Origin: an uncultured Thermomicrobiaceae bacterium
GTDB lineage: Bacteria > Chloroflexota > Chloroflexia > Thermomicrobiales > Thermomicrobiaceae
Reading direction: 5' to 3'
Length of the DNA: 64,000 nt
Assembly: GCA_938082375.1 (NCBI GenBank)
Contig: CALKCJ010000020.1
Coordinates: 62,001 to 126,000, forward strand
Within the stretch, counting starts at the first letter, position 1, and every line of letters begins with the position of its first letter. Below the pieces are notes generated by a model. The model was not told the DNA's origin. It saw nothing but the letters and a program-made list of their open reading frames with translations, and did no database searches. Shown one piece after another: positions 31,873 to 37,298 of the stretch. The position numbers were made by a program, and so were the translations under genes.

Positions 31873-31901
31873 TTGCAGTCGGGGGTGTACGTATGTATCA
31901 T
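31873..31901 (+). promoter_or_regulatory. mraZ (dcw cluster) promoter
   Basis: TTGCAG (31873-31878), 17-bp spacer, TATCAT (31896-31901). The expected transcription start is near 31908, about 180 nt before mraZ. Confidence 0.7.
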
Positions 31902-31952
31902 TGTGGACAACGGTGGGGGACGGTGGGGATAAGTGGGGGGTGCTGTGGATAA
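31902..31952 (-). promoter_or_regulatory. DnaA-box cluster at the mraZ promoter
   Basis: Read on the minus strand: TTATCCACA at 31944-31952 (exact DnaA box), TTGTCCACA at 31902-31910 (matches TTRTCCACA) and TTATCCCCA at 31924-31932 (one mismatch). All have the same orientation, 20 and 22 bp apart. The first begins right after the -10 element. Confidence 0.55.
31914..31938 (+). promoter_or_regulatory. MraZ box (three TGGGG repeats, 10-bp period)
   Basis: TGGGG at 31914, 31924 and 31934. MraZ is known to bind direct TGGGN repeats separated by 5 bp in its own promoter; spacing and place here match. Autoregulation of the dcw cluster is expected. Confidence 0.8.
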
Positions 31953-32088: not shown

Positions 32089-32517
32089 ATGTTTCTTGGC
32101 CGATATAGCCATACGATCGACGACAAGGGGCGCCTGGCCATCCCGGCGCGGTTCCGCGATCTTTTCGGCGGGGAAGCGGTGCTGACCCGTGGGATCGACC
32201 GCTGCTTGACGCTGTACCCGATGGCGGCCTGGCGCCCACTGGCGGAGAAGGTCTCGGCACTGTCGATCAGCGATCCCGATGCGCGCACCTTCCGACGCAT
32301 GGTCTTCGCTGAGGCGACGATTGTGCAGTTCGACCGCCAGGGGCGCATCTTGCTCCCACCGGAGTTACGCGACTACGCTGGCTTAGAGCGGGATGCCATA
32401 GTGGTGGGAGTCAACACCTACGTCGAGATCTGGAGCCCTGCCGCGTGGTCGGCCCAGGCGGAGATGATCGAGCGCGAGGGCGCCTCGATTGCCCAGCGCC
32501 TCGCGACGCTGATCTAG
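32089..32517 (+). CDS. mraZ: transcriptional regulator MraZ
   Basis: 142 aa. Two AbrB-like double-hairpin modules: MFLGRYSHTIDDKGRLAIPARFR at the start and VQFDRQGRILLPPELRDYAGL near residues 79-99, containing the DxxGR motifs. The family represses its own operon by binding TGGGN repeats, which are present upstream. It opens the dcw cluster. No strong Shine-Dalgarno sequence precedes the ATG. Confidence 0.95.
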   Translation: MFLGRYSHTIDDKGRLAIPARFRDLFGGEAVLTRGIDRCLTLYPMAAWRPLAEKVSALSISDPDARTFRRMVFAEATIVQFDRQGRILLPPELRDYAGLERDAIVVGVNTYVEIWSPAAWSAQAEMIEREGASIAQRLATLI

Positions 32518-32587: not shown

Positions 32588-33574
32588 ATGTCTGAGCGAA
32601 CCACTATGGTGACCGACCCCAAGGGCTTCTCGGCTCGATCCGGCACCGAGCTGCGTCACCAGCCGGTACTCCTGCGAGAGACCATCGAATTCCTGGCTGT
32701 GCGACCGGGCGGCCGGTACATCGATGCGACCTTTGGTGGGGGTGGCCATACCCGGGCCATCCTCGAGGCAAGCGCGCCTGACGGCGTCGTCCTGGCGGTG
32801 GACGCCGACCCGGAGGCCATCGCGCGGGCAGAGGAGCTGGCTCGCGAGTATCCTGGGCGACTGATCCCCTGCCACGGTAACTTTGCCGCACTGGTCGAGT
32901 TAGCCCGCGCGCGCGGCTTTGCCGAGGTCGACGGAGTCCTCTTCGACCTCGGCCTCTCCTCCTTCCAGCTCGCCGCTCCCGAGCGCGGGTTTTCCTTCCA
33001 GCTCAGTGGCCCACTTGACATGCGTTTCGATCCGACGCGCGGACAACCTGCCTCAGTTCTGGTCAATACCTGGCCAGCTGAGCGGCTGGCCGAACTGATC
33101 GCCAGCTACGGCGAGGAGCCGCGTGCCAGGCAGATCGCTCGCGCGATTGTGGAGGCGCGACGGCGGGCACCAATCGAGACCTCCGAGCAGCTCGCGGAGA
33201 TCGTGAGCCGTGTCGCCGGGCGTCGTCGCGGCATTCACCCGGCGACACGGACGTTTCAGGCCTTGCGCATCGCCGTCAACCAGGAACTGGAAGCGCTGGA
33301 GAAAGGCCTCGCGGACGCCGTCGAGCTGCTTCGTCCGGGTGGCCGGCTGGTCGTTATCTCTTTCCACTCCTTGGAGGATCGTAGTGTCAAGCGATTCCTG
33401 CGGGCGGAGTCGCAGCCATGCCGGTGTCCGCCGGGGACGCCGATCTGTGTCTGTGGGCAACGGGCCAGACTCCGGATCCTGACGCCGAAACCGGTCAGGC
33501 CGAGCCCGGAGGAGGTCGCAGCGAACCCGAGGAGCCGGAGCGCGCGCCTGCGTGCCGCGGAGCGACTGCCATGA
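32588..33574 (+). CDS. rsmH: 16S rRNA (cytosine1402-N4)-methyltransferase
   Basis: 328 aa. SAM-binding GRYIDATFGGGGHTRAIL near residue 40, then DGVLFDLGLSSFQL, the GPLDMRFDP motif and VISFHSLEDRSVKRF. It methylates N4 of C1402 in 16S rRNA and conventionally follows mraZ. Two in-frame ATG codons (32588, 32606) are possible starts. It overlaps ftsL by 4 bp (ATGA). Confidence 0.95.
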   Translation: MSERTTMVTDPKGFSARSGTELRHQPVLLRETIEFLAVRPGGRYIDATFGGGGHTRAILEASAPDGVVLAVDADPEAIARAEELAREYPGRLIPCHGNFAALVELARARGFAEVDGVLFDLGLSSFQLAAPERGFSFQLSGPLDMRFDPTRGQPASVLVNTWPAERLAELIASYGEEPRARQIARAIVEARRRAPIETSEQLAEIVSRVAGRRRGIHPATRTFQALRIAVNQELEALEKGLADAVELLRPGGRLVVISFHSLEDRSVKRFLRAESQPCRCPPGTPICVCGQRARLRILTPKPVRPSPEEVAANPRSRSARLRAAERLP

Positions 33575-34080
33575 CCTCGACGCTGACCCACCGCCCGCAC
33601 GCCCGAGTGGTATCAGCCTGGCCGGAGCAGCCTCCGCGCGCGACTCGTGCCGTGCCTGCAGCTGGGGGGCTGAGCACCGTGGCGATCGCGGTGATCGTCG
33701 CACTCGCACTGGGTGGCCTGAGTGTGCTCTATCTGGTTCAGACCAGCCAGGTCGTCCAGCTCGGGTACGAGCTCACGCACCTCCAGGAGCAGCACGACAC
33801 GCTGGTTCTGGAGAACTCGCGCTTGCGCTATGAGATCGCTCGCTACCAGTCACTGGACACGGTGGAGCGGATCGCGCGCCGTGAGCTCGGTATGACTCCG
33901 GTGCGGCGTACGGTGTTTCTGGAAGTCGAGCGGCCAGCGTCGTCTGTGCTACCACCGGTTGCCGAGACGGGGCCACAGCCAGTCTCGCGCTGGCAGCGAC
34001 TCTGGGAACTCGTCTGGGGAATCGGCCGGGCCGCTGACGAGAGCGACTCTGCCGACGCGAGTGGGCAAGGAACCGAGTGA
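33571..34080 (+). CDS. ftsL: FtsL-like cell division protein
   Basis: 169 aa. Short basic cytoplasmic part, one membrane helix near residues 37-58 (TVAIAVIVALALGGLSVLYL), a coiled coil (YELTHLQEQHDTLVLENSRL) and the AxxELGM segment typical of FtsL/DivIC. It scaffolds the FtsW/FtsI synthase with FtsB and FtsQ at the septum. Sequence similarity in this family is low, so the call rests on topology and on its place between rsmH and ftsI. ATG overlaps the rsmH stop; the C-terminal 45 residues are a variable tail. Confidence 0.82.
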   Translation: MTSTLTHRPHARVVSAWPEQPPRATRAVPAAGGLSTVAIAVIVALALGGLSVLYLVQTSQVVQLGYELTHLQEQHDTLVLENSRLRYEIARYQSLDTVERIARRELGMTPVRRTVFLEVERPASSVLPPVAETGPQPVSRWQRLWELVWGIGRAADESDSADASGQGTE

Positions 34081-35807
34081 TGCAGCGGCCGGCAGGGGTC
34101 TCACCGAGACGGATCTACCTGCTCTACGCCTGTTTCGTGCTCTTCTCCGGAGCCGTGGGCTATCGCGTCTTCTCGTTCCAGGTGATGCAAGGGCCGGCGC
34201 TGGCCCAGCGAGCCGAACAGTTCCGCTACCGAGAAGATATGGTGCCCGCGCACCGGGGCGACATCCTCGATGCGCGCGGCCGGGTGCTCGCGACCGACGT
34301 GCCGGCTGATCGCGTCTCGGCAATCATCCAGGAAGTGGAGGATCCCCGGCGGACGGCCGAGCTGCTCGCGCCGCTGATCGGTCGAAGCCAGGAGGAGATC
34401 TATGCCGCACTGACACAACCAGGCAAGGAGTGGGTCGTACTCCAGCGCCGGCTCTCTGCGGAGACCTCGCAGCGCATCCGCGATCTCGGCCTTCCTGGTA
34501 TCGTGCTGGATCCGGAGCCTCGTCGGATCTACCCGATGGGAGCGGTCGCAGCACAGGTGATCGGCTTCGTCAACTGGGAGTACACAGGGGCCTACGGGAT
34601 CGAGGCAGCGTACGACAGCGTAGTCGGTGGCGTTCCCGGGCAGTTGATCGGGGAGCGCGACGCCGCGGGCAAGGTGATCGCGCTCGGTCACAGTGTCTGG
34701 AACCCGCCGCGCGATGGCGCGACACTGGTGCTGACCATCGACCTGGCGGTGCAGCGAATAGCCGAACAAGCGCTCAAGAAAGCGGTCGAGGAGCAGGAGG
34801 CGGCCGGCGGCACGATCATCGTTCAGAACCCGAAGACGGGTGCGATCCTCGCTATGGCCAACGTGCCGTCATTCGACCCCAACCATTTCGAAGATGTGAG
34901 CGATGCCTCGTTGTTCGGCAATCCCGCGGTGTCGGCCAGCTATGAGCCTGGCTCAACCTTCAAGGTCATTACAATGGCACTCGGCCTTGATGCGGGCGTG
35001 GTTTCGCCCGGCACCTCGGTCGATGGTGGCAGCTATCGCGAGCTGCCCGATGGCACCCGGATCTACAATGCGCTGCACCAGGAGTTCGGTGTCGAGACGA
35101 TGACGCAGGTGCTGGCGCACTCCAGCAATGTAGGCGCCATGTTCGTCGCTGACCGACTGGGAGCAGAGACCTTCTACCAGGGTGTGCGCCGCTTCGGCTT
35201 CGGGGAGCCCACTGGAATCGACCTGCCGGCTGAGGCGGAGGGGATCGTGCATGCGCCGGAGAGTCCGTTCTGGTCGCTGACCACCTTCTATACGAACGCT
35301 TTTGGCCAGGGATTAGCGGTCACACCGATCCAGCTGGTCAACGCCGTCTCCGCTATTGCGAACGGGGGAACCTTGATGCGCCCGTATGTGGTGCACGAGA
35401 TCCGTGGTGAGGGGGCGACGGTCACGCAGCCGCAACCGATCCGGCAAGTCGTGCGCCCGGAAACGGCACAGCGGCTCACGGAGATGCTCGTGGAGGTCAT
35501 GGAGACGGAGTACCGAGACAAGTTCGGGATCCCTGGGTACCGGGTCGCCGCCAAGACGGGCACGGCCGAGATACCGTCGCCGACCGGCGGCTATGAGTCC
35601 GGCCCCGGTTCGACGATCGCTTCAGTGGTCGGATTCGGCCCGGCCGAAGATCCGCAGTTTACCGTCCTGGTCAAGATCGACCGACCGGTGAAATCGCCCT
35701 GGGGCGAGCGGGCTGCGGGGCCAGCCTTTCGCACGGTGATGCAGGAACTCTTCCTGCTCTATGGCATCCCTCCCAGTGAGCCGGCCGAGCTCGACGCTGG
35801 ATCGTGA
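34080..35807 (+). CDS. ftsI: septal peptidoglycan transpeptidase (penicillin-binding protein, FtsI type)
   Basis: 575 aa class B PBP. One N-terminal membrane helix (LLYACFVLFSGAVGYRV), a PBP dimerisation domain (HRGDILDARGRVLATD), and the transpeptidase domain. The active Ser lies in PGSTFK near residue 293, SSN near 348 and KTGT near 491. It cross-links septal peptidoglycan with FtsW. There is no C-terminal PASTA domain. ATG 34080 overlaps the ftsL stop by one base (TGATG); GTG 34077 is equally in frame. In most clusters murE follows; here murF comes next. Confidence 0.93.
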   Translation: MQRPAGVSPRRIYLLYACFVLFSGAVGYRVFSFQVMQGPALAQRAEQFRYREDMVPAHRGDILDARGRVLATDVPADRVSAIIQEVEDPRRTAELLAPLIGRSQEEIYAALTQPGKEWVVLQRRLSAETSQRIRDLGLPGIVLDPEPRRIYPMGAVAAQVIGFVNWEYTGAYGIEAAYDSVVGGVPGQLIGERDAAGKVIALGHSVWNPPRDGATLVLTIDLAVQRIAEQALKKAVEEQEAAGGTIIVQNPKTGAILAMANVPSFDPNHFEDVSDASLFGNPAVSASYEPGSTFKVITMALGLDAGVVSPGTSVDGGSYRELPDGTRIYNALHQEFGVETMTQVLAHSSNVGAMFVADRLGAETFYQGVRRFGFGEPTGIDLPAEAEGIVHAPESPFWSLTTFYTNAFGQGLAVTPIQLVNAVSAIANGGTLMRPYVVHEIRGEGATVTQPQPIRQVVRPETAQRLTEMLVEVMETEYRDKFGIPGYRVAAKTGTAEIPSPTGGYESGPGSTIASVVGFGPAEDPQFTVLVKIDRPVKSPWGERAAGPAFRTVMQELFLLYGIPPSEPAELDAGS

Positions 35808-35897
35808 TGCCGCCAGGTGGCAATACTTTCCGGCTGGAGCGAGGTGGGCTTTCGATCATCGAGTCGCGGTGTGGCTCCGGGAATGGAGGGCGGAACC

Positions 35898-37298
35898 ATG
35901 ATCTCGCTCCGCGACGTCCTGGATGGGAGTGCCGGCGTCCTCCGCGGGAGCTCATCGACTGACCTCCTCCTGCGACACATCCGGCACGACTCACGCGAGG
36001 TGGAGCCGGGTGACCTCTTCGTCGCGGTCGTCGGGGAGCAGCGCGACGGCCACGACTTCGTCGCCGACGCGCTGGCCCGCGGCGCGGGCGCGGTGATGGT
36101 CGACCGGCACCACGCGCCGCGCTTCGAAGGGCTCTCCGTGCCGGTGGTCGTCGTCGAGGATACGGTTACTGGGTTGCGGCGGCTGGCGTCGTACTGGCGC
36201 TCGCTCTTCGACGTGCGGGTCATCGGGATAACCGGCAGCATGGGTAAGACGAGCACCAAGGAAGCCGTGGCCGCGGTCGTGTCCCAGCGCTATGCCGTGG
36301 TGCGCACCCGGCGGAGCTACAACACCGACATCGGGATCTCCCTCGGGCTCCTAGAGATCTCGCCAGACACCGAGGTCGTCGTGCTCGAGCTCGGAGAGGC
36401 ATACCGACTCAACGAGGTGCGCGAGCTCTGCGAGCTCGGGCGCCCATCGATCGGGGTTGTGACCAACGTGAGCTACTCACACCTGGGGCGGATGGGATCG
36501 ATCGAAGCGATCGCCGAGAGCATCGCCGAGCTGCCCGAATCGCTGCCGGAAGACGGCGTGGCGGTGCTCAATGGCGACGACTTTCGCGTTCGGGCCATGG
36601 TGGAGCGATGCCGCTGCCCAGTTGTGTTCTACGGGCTAGCTCACGACTGTGCGGTGCGGGCCGAGTCGGTCGAGAGTCACGGGCTGGCCGGCATCGCCTT
36701 CGACTTGCTCCTCGAGGGCCAGCGGAGCCGGGTGCGCTTACCGCTGCTCGGGCGCCACAGCGTGCACACGGCGTTAGCCGCCATCGCGGTCGGCCATGTG
36801 CTCGGTATGACGCTGGATGAAATGCTGCCCGGTTTTAGCGACCCGACCGTGCAGGTGCGACTGCTCACCGTGCCGGGTATCAACAGCTCAACCATCCTCG
36901 ACGACACGTACAACGCGAACCCGACCTCGTGCCTGGCGGCTTTGGCCCTGCTAGCAGAGATCCCAGCCAAACGGCATATTGCCGTCTTCGGGGACATGTA
37001 CGAGCTCGGATCGTACGAGGAGGAGGGACACCGGCTAGTCGGGCGACGAGCTGCGGCCGTGGTGGATCTGCTCTTCACGCTCGGGCCGCGCGCGCGGATG
37101 ATCGCCGAGGAGGCGGTGAGTGCCGGCTTGTCAGCCCTGGCAGTGATTGCGACGGAGGATCGGCGTGAGCTGATCGAGCTCCTGCGCGAGATGCTTGAGC
37201 CGGGTGACTTCGTCCTGGTAAAGGGAGCGCGTGGGATGCGCATGGAGGAGATAGTCGAGGCGCTGCGCGCGCCTCGGCGGGTGGAAGAGAAGCAGTGA
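35898..37298 (+). CDS. murF: UDP-N-acetylmuramoyl-tripeptide--D-alanyl-D-alanine ligase
   Basis: 466 aa Mur ligase. N-terminal uridine-binding domain (DSREVEPGDLFVAVVGEQRDGHDF), ATP loop GITGSMGKTSTKE near residue 111, central domain and the C-terminal motif DDTYNANPTS with GDMYELG. This pattern is MurF rather than MurE: no DNPR motif. It adds D-Ala-D-Ala to the UDP-MurNAc peptide. ATG 35898 is preceded by GGAGGGCGG; the upstream frame from 35817 is not Mur-like. About 90 bp separate it from ftsI. Confidence 0.92.
   Translation: MISLRDVLDGSAGVLRGSSSTDLLLRHIRHDSREVEPGDLFVAVVGEQRDGHDFVADALARGAGAVMVDRHHAPRFEGLSVPVVVVEDTVTGLRRLASYWRSLFDVRVIGITGSMGKTSTKEAVAAVVSQRYAVVRTRRSYNTDIGISLGLLEISPDTEVVVLELGEAYRLNEVRELCELGRPSIGVVTNVSYSHLGRMGSIEAIAESIAELPESLPEDGVAVLNGDDFRVRAMVERCRCPVVFYGLAHDCAVRAESVESHGLAGIAFDLLLEGQRSRVRLPLLGRHSVHTALAAIAVGHVLGMTLDEMLPGFSDPTVQVRLLTVPGINSSTILDDTYNANPTSCLAALALLAEIPAKRHIAVFGDMYELGSYEEEGHRLVGRRAAAVVDLLFTLGPRARMIAEEAVSAGLSALAVIATEDRRELIELLREMLEPGDFVLVKGARGMRMEEIVEALRAPRRVEEKQ

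Follow-up and report, generated by a model that had tools for sequence, protein, structure and literature searches.

The mraZ promoter of a Thermomicrobiaceae genome (G000; Chloroflexota) is predicted to hold an oriC-like array of three DnaA boxes interleaved with a three-repeat MraZ operator, and we put at roughly three in four the probability that this reading is right and that DnaA represses the promoter in competition with MraZ. It has long been asked how bacteria couple their division to replication. If the prediction is true, DNA replication may be wired directly to cell division in a heat-loving Chloroflexota order, the Thermomicrobiales. The array is fixed in the master division and wall promoter of 22 genera, where it was resolved to the single base, and sister families serve as a natural control. 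What the analysis established directly is the anatomy of the region and how it is conserved, that two motif classes separate, that the array matches oriC, and that the box-reading helix of DnaA is intact. The window referred to below is the whole 64-kb stretch analyzed from this genome, whose genus records include Thermalbibacter longus.

Anatomy of the mraZ promoter

The initial annotation had described a -10 element followed by three TGGGG repeats with a 10-bp period, three DnaA-type boxes in one orientation about two helical turns apart, and an overlap of the middle box with the second repeat. Each of these features is present in the window at the positions listed in Table 1. The TGGGG repeats (starting at 31914, 31924, and 31934) lie 5' of mraZ at the 10-bp period of an MraZ box. 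The segment from 31902 to 31952 reads TGTGGACAA-N3-TGGGG-N5-TGGGGATAA-G-TGGGG-N5-TGTGGATAA and ends 136 bp 5' of mraZ. Counted from the first box, its units start at 0, +12, +22, +32, and +42; the DnaA-type boxes are 22 and 20 bp apart (42 bp in total), each step being about two helical turns, and the outer boxes are four turns apart. Because MraZ repeats and DnaA boxes have GTGG in common, part of the resemblance between them is built in. The mismatch of the central box, TTATCCCCA, falls at an important position, which counts against a DnaA reading of that unit.

Table 1. Predicted promoter elements, operator units, and genes of the mraZ region, in window coordinates
Feature	Position	Strand	Remarks
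-35-like hexamer TTGCAG	31873..31878	+	17 bp 5' of -10; weak, 3/6 match to TTGACA
-10 element TATCAT	31896..31901	+	Read from sequence
Upstream predicted DnaA box TTGTCCACA	31902..31910	-	Overlies expected transcription start
MraZ repeat 1 (GTGGGG core)	31914..31918	+	Same 10-bp repeat period 5' of mraZ in E. coli
Central shared site: MraZ repeat 2 (TGGGG) and DnaA-like box TTATCCCCA	31924..31932	+ (repeat), - (box)	One mismatch in box
MraZ repeat 3	31934..31938	+	TGGGG
Downstream predicted DnaA box TTATCCACA	31944..31952	-	Exact match
mraZ, first dcw cluster gene	32089..32517	+	PF02381, 131 bits, E 1.5e-38
Rest of near operon	32588..37298	+	Pfam matches
rsmH/mraW	32588..33574	+	Pfam
DivIC/FtsL-like protein	33568..34080	+	Pfam
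FtsI-type PBP (class B PBP)	34077..35807	+	Pfam
Mur ligase	35817..37298	+	Pfam

An automatic sigma-70 scan did not list the TTGCAG/TATCAT promoter, because its -35 matches TTGACA at only three of six positions. In the aligned upstream regions of relatives, the -35-like position is occupied by TTGCGC, TTGCGG, or TTGTAC and the -10 by TATAAT, TATGCT, TATACT, or TATTCT, and the -10 either abuts the first box or has its last T in common with it. By their Pfam matches, the genes 3' of mraZ are a normal dcw cluster.

Separately, GTGTACGTATGTAT, between the -35 and -10 (window 31886 to 31899), is kept across much of family f1 (for example, in relatives L015, L026, and L022), and TTGTACGTACAC is conserved at the -35 in family f2. 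Either may mark a possible site for a further regulator near the promoter.

Two motif classes within the operator

Upstream regions of mraZ were gathered from 90 genomes of the class, with families f1 to f4 representing the Thermomicrobiales and f6 to f11 the sister families. Across the 38 aligned Thermomicrobiales loci, an AYAA tail follows the unit at 0 in 35, the unit at +22 in 35, and the unit at +42 in 28 (35 if the 7 further loci with AAAA are counted), and it is found in 0/38 at +12 and 0/38 at +32, though the TGGG-type cores of these MraZ-only units are kept. The first unit is TGTGGATAA (20 loci) or TGTGGACAA (14 loci) in 34 of the 38 upstream regions, the central unit is TGGGGAYAA in 35, and the unit at +42 is GTGGAYAA or GTGGAAAA in 34, with one more displaced by 1 bp. 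A strict search for two GTGGAHAA cores exactly 42 bp apart succeeded in 30/38 loci. MraZ repeat 3 is TGGGG in most genomes; in several from f3 it has decayed to TGGCG, TGGTC, or TGGCA, and the box that follows is kept there. That last unit stands 12 bp, not 10, after the third GTGG and is thus 2 bp off the MraZ phase. Because AYAA tails occur only at 0, +22, and +42 and because the off-phase last unit outlives repeat 3, this pattern indicates that these three units are read by something other than MraZ.

The same observations bear on a simpler account, in which all five GTGG units are half-sites of an extended MraZ operator, the MraZ of this lineage prefers five of them, and DnaA is uninvolved. 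GTGG is indeed common to all the units, the GTGG of the upstream unit falls in step with the 10-bp MraZ repeats, in Patescibacteria GTGGATAA is likewise found as a repeat in phase, and Mollicute MraZ repeats take the form AAAGTG[T/G] (PMC8475190). We nevertheless regard this account as unlikely, given the absence of AYAA tails from the two plain MraZ units and their near-fixation at 0 and +22, the persistence of an out-of-phase last unit beside a decayed repeat, the three-repeat MraZ boxes of E. coli and the sister families, which do without these boxes, and the occurrence of the same triad at the oriC of the clade.

Conservation in the order and absence from sister families

The motif TGTGGAYAA was present within 300 bp 5' of mraZ in 37/38 Thermomicrobiales loci and 22/22 genera, counts that are not phylogenetically independent, and in 3/4 loci of families f12 to f14. 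The window's own genus varies at the downstream box, which is TTTTCCACA in 2/4 genomes (G001 and G002). In families f6 to f11, TGTGGAYAA was found at 0/48 mraZ loci (31 genera), and GTGGGG repeats there follow immediately 3' of TATAAT. Since the MraZ repeats persist in these families, the DnaA-type boxes are a lineage trait and not a universal one, and the flanking boxes are therefore no part of what MraZ requires. Because the sister families lack the boxes, coupling of dcw to DnaA is also not needed for dcw control generally. The proposal that the boxes are functional had been exposed to their loss from close relatives that keep MraZ boxes; all sampled genera of the order have them, and such loss was seen only in f6 to f11.

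The sister families have an element of their own. Directly 3' of their MraZ repeats (for example, at L097, L103, L122, and L099) we observed GAAC-N4-GTTC, in many cases at a distance of exactly 10 bp from the final TGGGG. It occurs in exact form in 11/48 loci and in loosened form in 27/48, compared with shuffle means of 0.1 and 1.2; the exact form is also present in 10/38 Thermomicrobiales upstream regions, mostly 5' of the promoter. The motif is of the Gram-positive LexA/SOS type and suggests that dcw may be linked to SOS where DnaA boxes are absent.

Rarity of the boxes and the DnaA protein

Pattern searches of the window's genome (3.36 Mb in 61 contigs) found TTRTCCACA 22 times, as 12 exact copies of TTATCCACA and 10 of TTGTCCACA, and the three boxes of the mraZ promoter are 3 of only 4 sites within one mismatch of TTATCCACA in the window. 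From this density, about 0.004 same-strand pairs of exact boxes within 51 bp would be expected, and two were observed. The genome-wide count that had been proposed as a check thus shows that exact boxes are rare and that tight clusters are mainly those of oriC and mraZ. The other pair lies on a short 9-kb contig (C54, positions 312 to 362), where two exact TTATCCACA boxes are 42 bp apart; it was rejected as a second site because it belongs to a coding tandem repeat (VDKITPGQ/VDNITPGQ), and its spacing equals that at mraZ by coincidence.

Given that TTRTCCACA occurs only 22 times in the genome, the mraZ array is not due to chance. This rarity weighs against the idea that the tails belong to the start site, the discriminator, or the leader RNA and match DnaA boxes by coincidence. 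Such an idea draws on the position of the first box at the expected start site and on a G-rich region that favors repeats; it is at odds with the equal conservation of the third box, some 40 bp into the transcript, with sister families that have the same -10 without a box, and with ordinary folding of the leader RNA (z -0.59). We consider it barely credible.

The DnaA of the window's genome matches PF00308 (246 bits) and PF08299 (90.7 bits), and its domain IV keeps GRDHTTVLHG and PRQVAMYL. Together with six relatives, it conforms to RDH[TS]T[VI][LM]HG with PRQ/PRH and AMY. Because this box-reading signature is intact, canonical reading of TTATCCACA is expected.

Likeness to the replication origin of the clade

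The neighborhoods of dnaA in 30 relatives contain almost no boxes, which at first appeared to weaken the DnaA reading; the origin was found elsewhere by skew and synteny. In the Thermomicrobium roseum genome paper, too, the origin was assigned from GC skew and is not beside dnaA (PMC2615216). In a near-complete relative (G004), the GC skew changes sign around 2.37 to 2.72 Mb, and the intergenic segment 2,593,926 to 2,594,201 contains TTCTCCACA, TTATCCACA, TTGTCCACA, and TCATCCACA, of which the first two run on into TGTGGAAAT at 0/21/41. The candidate in the window's genome is intergenic (contig C17, 47530 to 47720; L004, L289), is not near dnaA, and contains six boxes that deviate by at most one mismatch. 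Next to it is an orthologue, 63% identical, of the origin-flanking gene of G004, and it has boxes at 0 and 21, the full triad being absent. By these features, it is the probable replication origin of the genome. The genome G042 has the triad TGTGGACAA/TGTGGATAA/TGTGGACAA at 0/21/41 beside the same flanking gene as in G004, and in G067 (f6, a single contig) a triad coincides with the sign change of a noisy skew profile.

A scan of 158 genomes of the class for two TGTGGAYAA motifs 15 to 45 bp apart matched in 75 genomes, compared with 2 for a reversed-pattern control. Most matches were a 50-bp triad; 51-bp matches were those at mraZ in the Thermomicrobiales and f14, plus C54, and few fell elsewhere. 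Skew or synteny identifies triads as oriC only in G000, G004, and G042, and less firmly in G067; the remaining triads of the class would be origins by their identical layout.

The array at mraZ resembles this triad in box sequences, substitutions, orientation, and spacing (0/22/42 versus 0/21/41). Several of its 9-mers match oriC boxes of the lineage, and its boxes are helix phased in a single orientation. The middle member of the triad is TGGGGATAA in G080 and G102, the same substitution as at mraZ, and GGTGGATAA in f3 triads (G033 and G057), which is also found at f3 mraZ. In contrast to the oriC triad, the mraZ array sits in a promoter and is interleaved with MraZ repeats. Nor is it placed as an origin: in G004, about 373 kb separate mraZ from the origin defined by skew, and in the window's genome the oriC candidate belongs to a different contig, C17.

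An origin-like array away from the origin could also be a DnaA reservoir of the datA type, which would buffer free DnaA and its timing and for which the location at mraZ would be secondary. In favor of such a role are the oriC-like spacing of three boxes along one helix face and the standing of the G004 array as one of few tight TTRTCCACA clusters, far from oriC. However, there are just three boxes, one of them degenerate, and in 22 genera the array is locked to MraZ repeats and to a promoter whose -10 abuts the first box, an arrangement needless for a reservoir. We therefore find this role very improbable.

A proposed mechanism and its relation to known systems

The interpretation offered by the initial annotation, that DnaA and MraZ compete for or jointly control the start of the division cluster, is the best supported. 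We infer DnaA binding, repression over activation, competition with MraZ as opposed to joint control, and a cell-cycle meaning. In the mechanism that we propose, MraZ would read the three GTGGGG repeats with their 10-bp period just 3' of the start site, and DnaA would read the boxes at 0, +22, and +42, which share one orientation and one helix face and could carry a short oligomer of DnaA, closing the promoter. Because the -10 runs up to the first box or overlaps it by its last T, bound DnaA would cover the expected start and might block promoter opening or escape. Since the central box is also MraZ repeat 2, the two proteins would not occupy the center together, and DnaA there would exclude MraZ. 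DnaA is thus probably a repressor at the start site that has the central site in common with MraZ; it could still act as an activator at some level. Under a cell-cycle logic borrowed from other species, abundant DnaA-ATP would keep dcw low before initiation, and titration or hydrolysis of DnaA would release dcw afterward. More tentatively, and at a little less than even odds, we propose that the operator is a dedicated replication-to-division switch throughout the order, with DnaA and MraZ competing at its center, and that dcw-DnaA coupling, seen in varied layouts in other Chloroflexota families and perhaps in Patescibacteria, could be old and recurrent. A direct test of the hypothesis would take two purified proteins and 70 bp of DNA.

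Regulation of division genes by DnaA has precedents. In Bacillus subtilis, DnaA was located by ChIP at the ftsL promoter region in vivo (Goranov et al. 2005, as reviewed in PMC8203912), and ftsL, rsmH, and pbpB are in one operon (PMC11019786). Both systems would put DnaA at a division-gene promoter, the placement in the Thermomicrobiales being predicted from sequence; interleaving with MraZ and an oriC-like 42-bp triad go unmentioned for ftsL in PMC8203912 and PMC11019786. In Caulobacter, DnaA controls ftsZ, gcrA, and mipZ (PMC8203912), which is like the control of division and cell-cycle genes proposed here; however, DnaA activates there, from separate promoters, and overlap with MraZ is undescribed. 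The Escherichia coli mraZ upstream region also has three GTGGG repeats with a 10-bp period, but its sole DnaA box within one mismatch is a TTTTCCACA 244 bp 5' of the gene. The DnaA boxes in E. coli ftsQA turned out to be irrelevant to the transcription of ftsZ (PMC8203912), a caution against inferring function from boxes alone; conservation distinguishes the Thermomicrobiales case. A search of the open-license literature, with subscription papers outside its scope, returned no published overlap of MraZ and DnaA sites, and a conserved, interlocked DnaA/MraZ operator appears to be new in that literature.

Other Chloroflexota and Patescibacteria

The exact composite pattern is also found 5' of mraZ in families f34, f37, f20, and f48. 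In 50 further Chloroflexota upstream regions (32 families), an exact box lies within 260 bp in 9 loci of 8 families, in differing layouts. Family f30 has its exact box 5' of the promoter, and f49 has related near-boxes.

The mraZ loci of 30 Patescibacteria (L209 to L238) have GTGG repeats with a 10-bp period and frequent GTGGATAA within or after them. Their upstream regions hold 11 exact boxes in 8.4 kb, compared with 6 in 80 kb of flanking sequence. In 11 loci, a downstream GTGGAYAA follows the last repeat by 11 to 14 or 22 to 23 bp. Perhaps a DnaA array occurs at the dcw promoter of Patescibacteria in varied layouts. We treat these boxes as a lead and not as a result, because GTGGATAA is also found there as a repeat in phase and the genomes are AT rich.

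Close tandem DnaA-like boxes (TTATCCAC and TTGTCCAC) were also observed 5' of the mraZ promoter, and not interleaved, at L264 (f30) and at L272 and L273 (f49).
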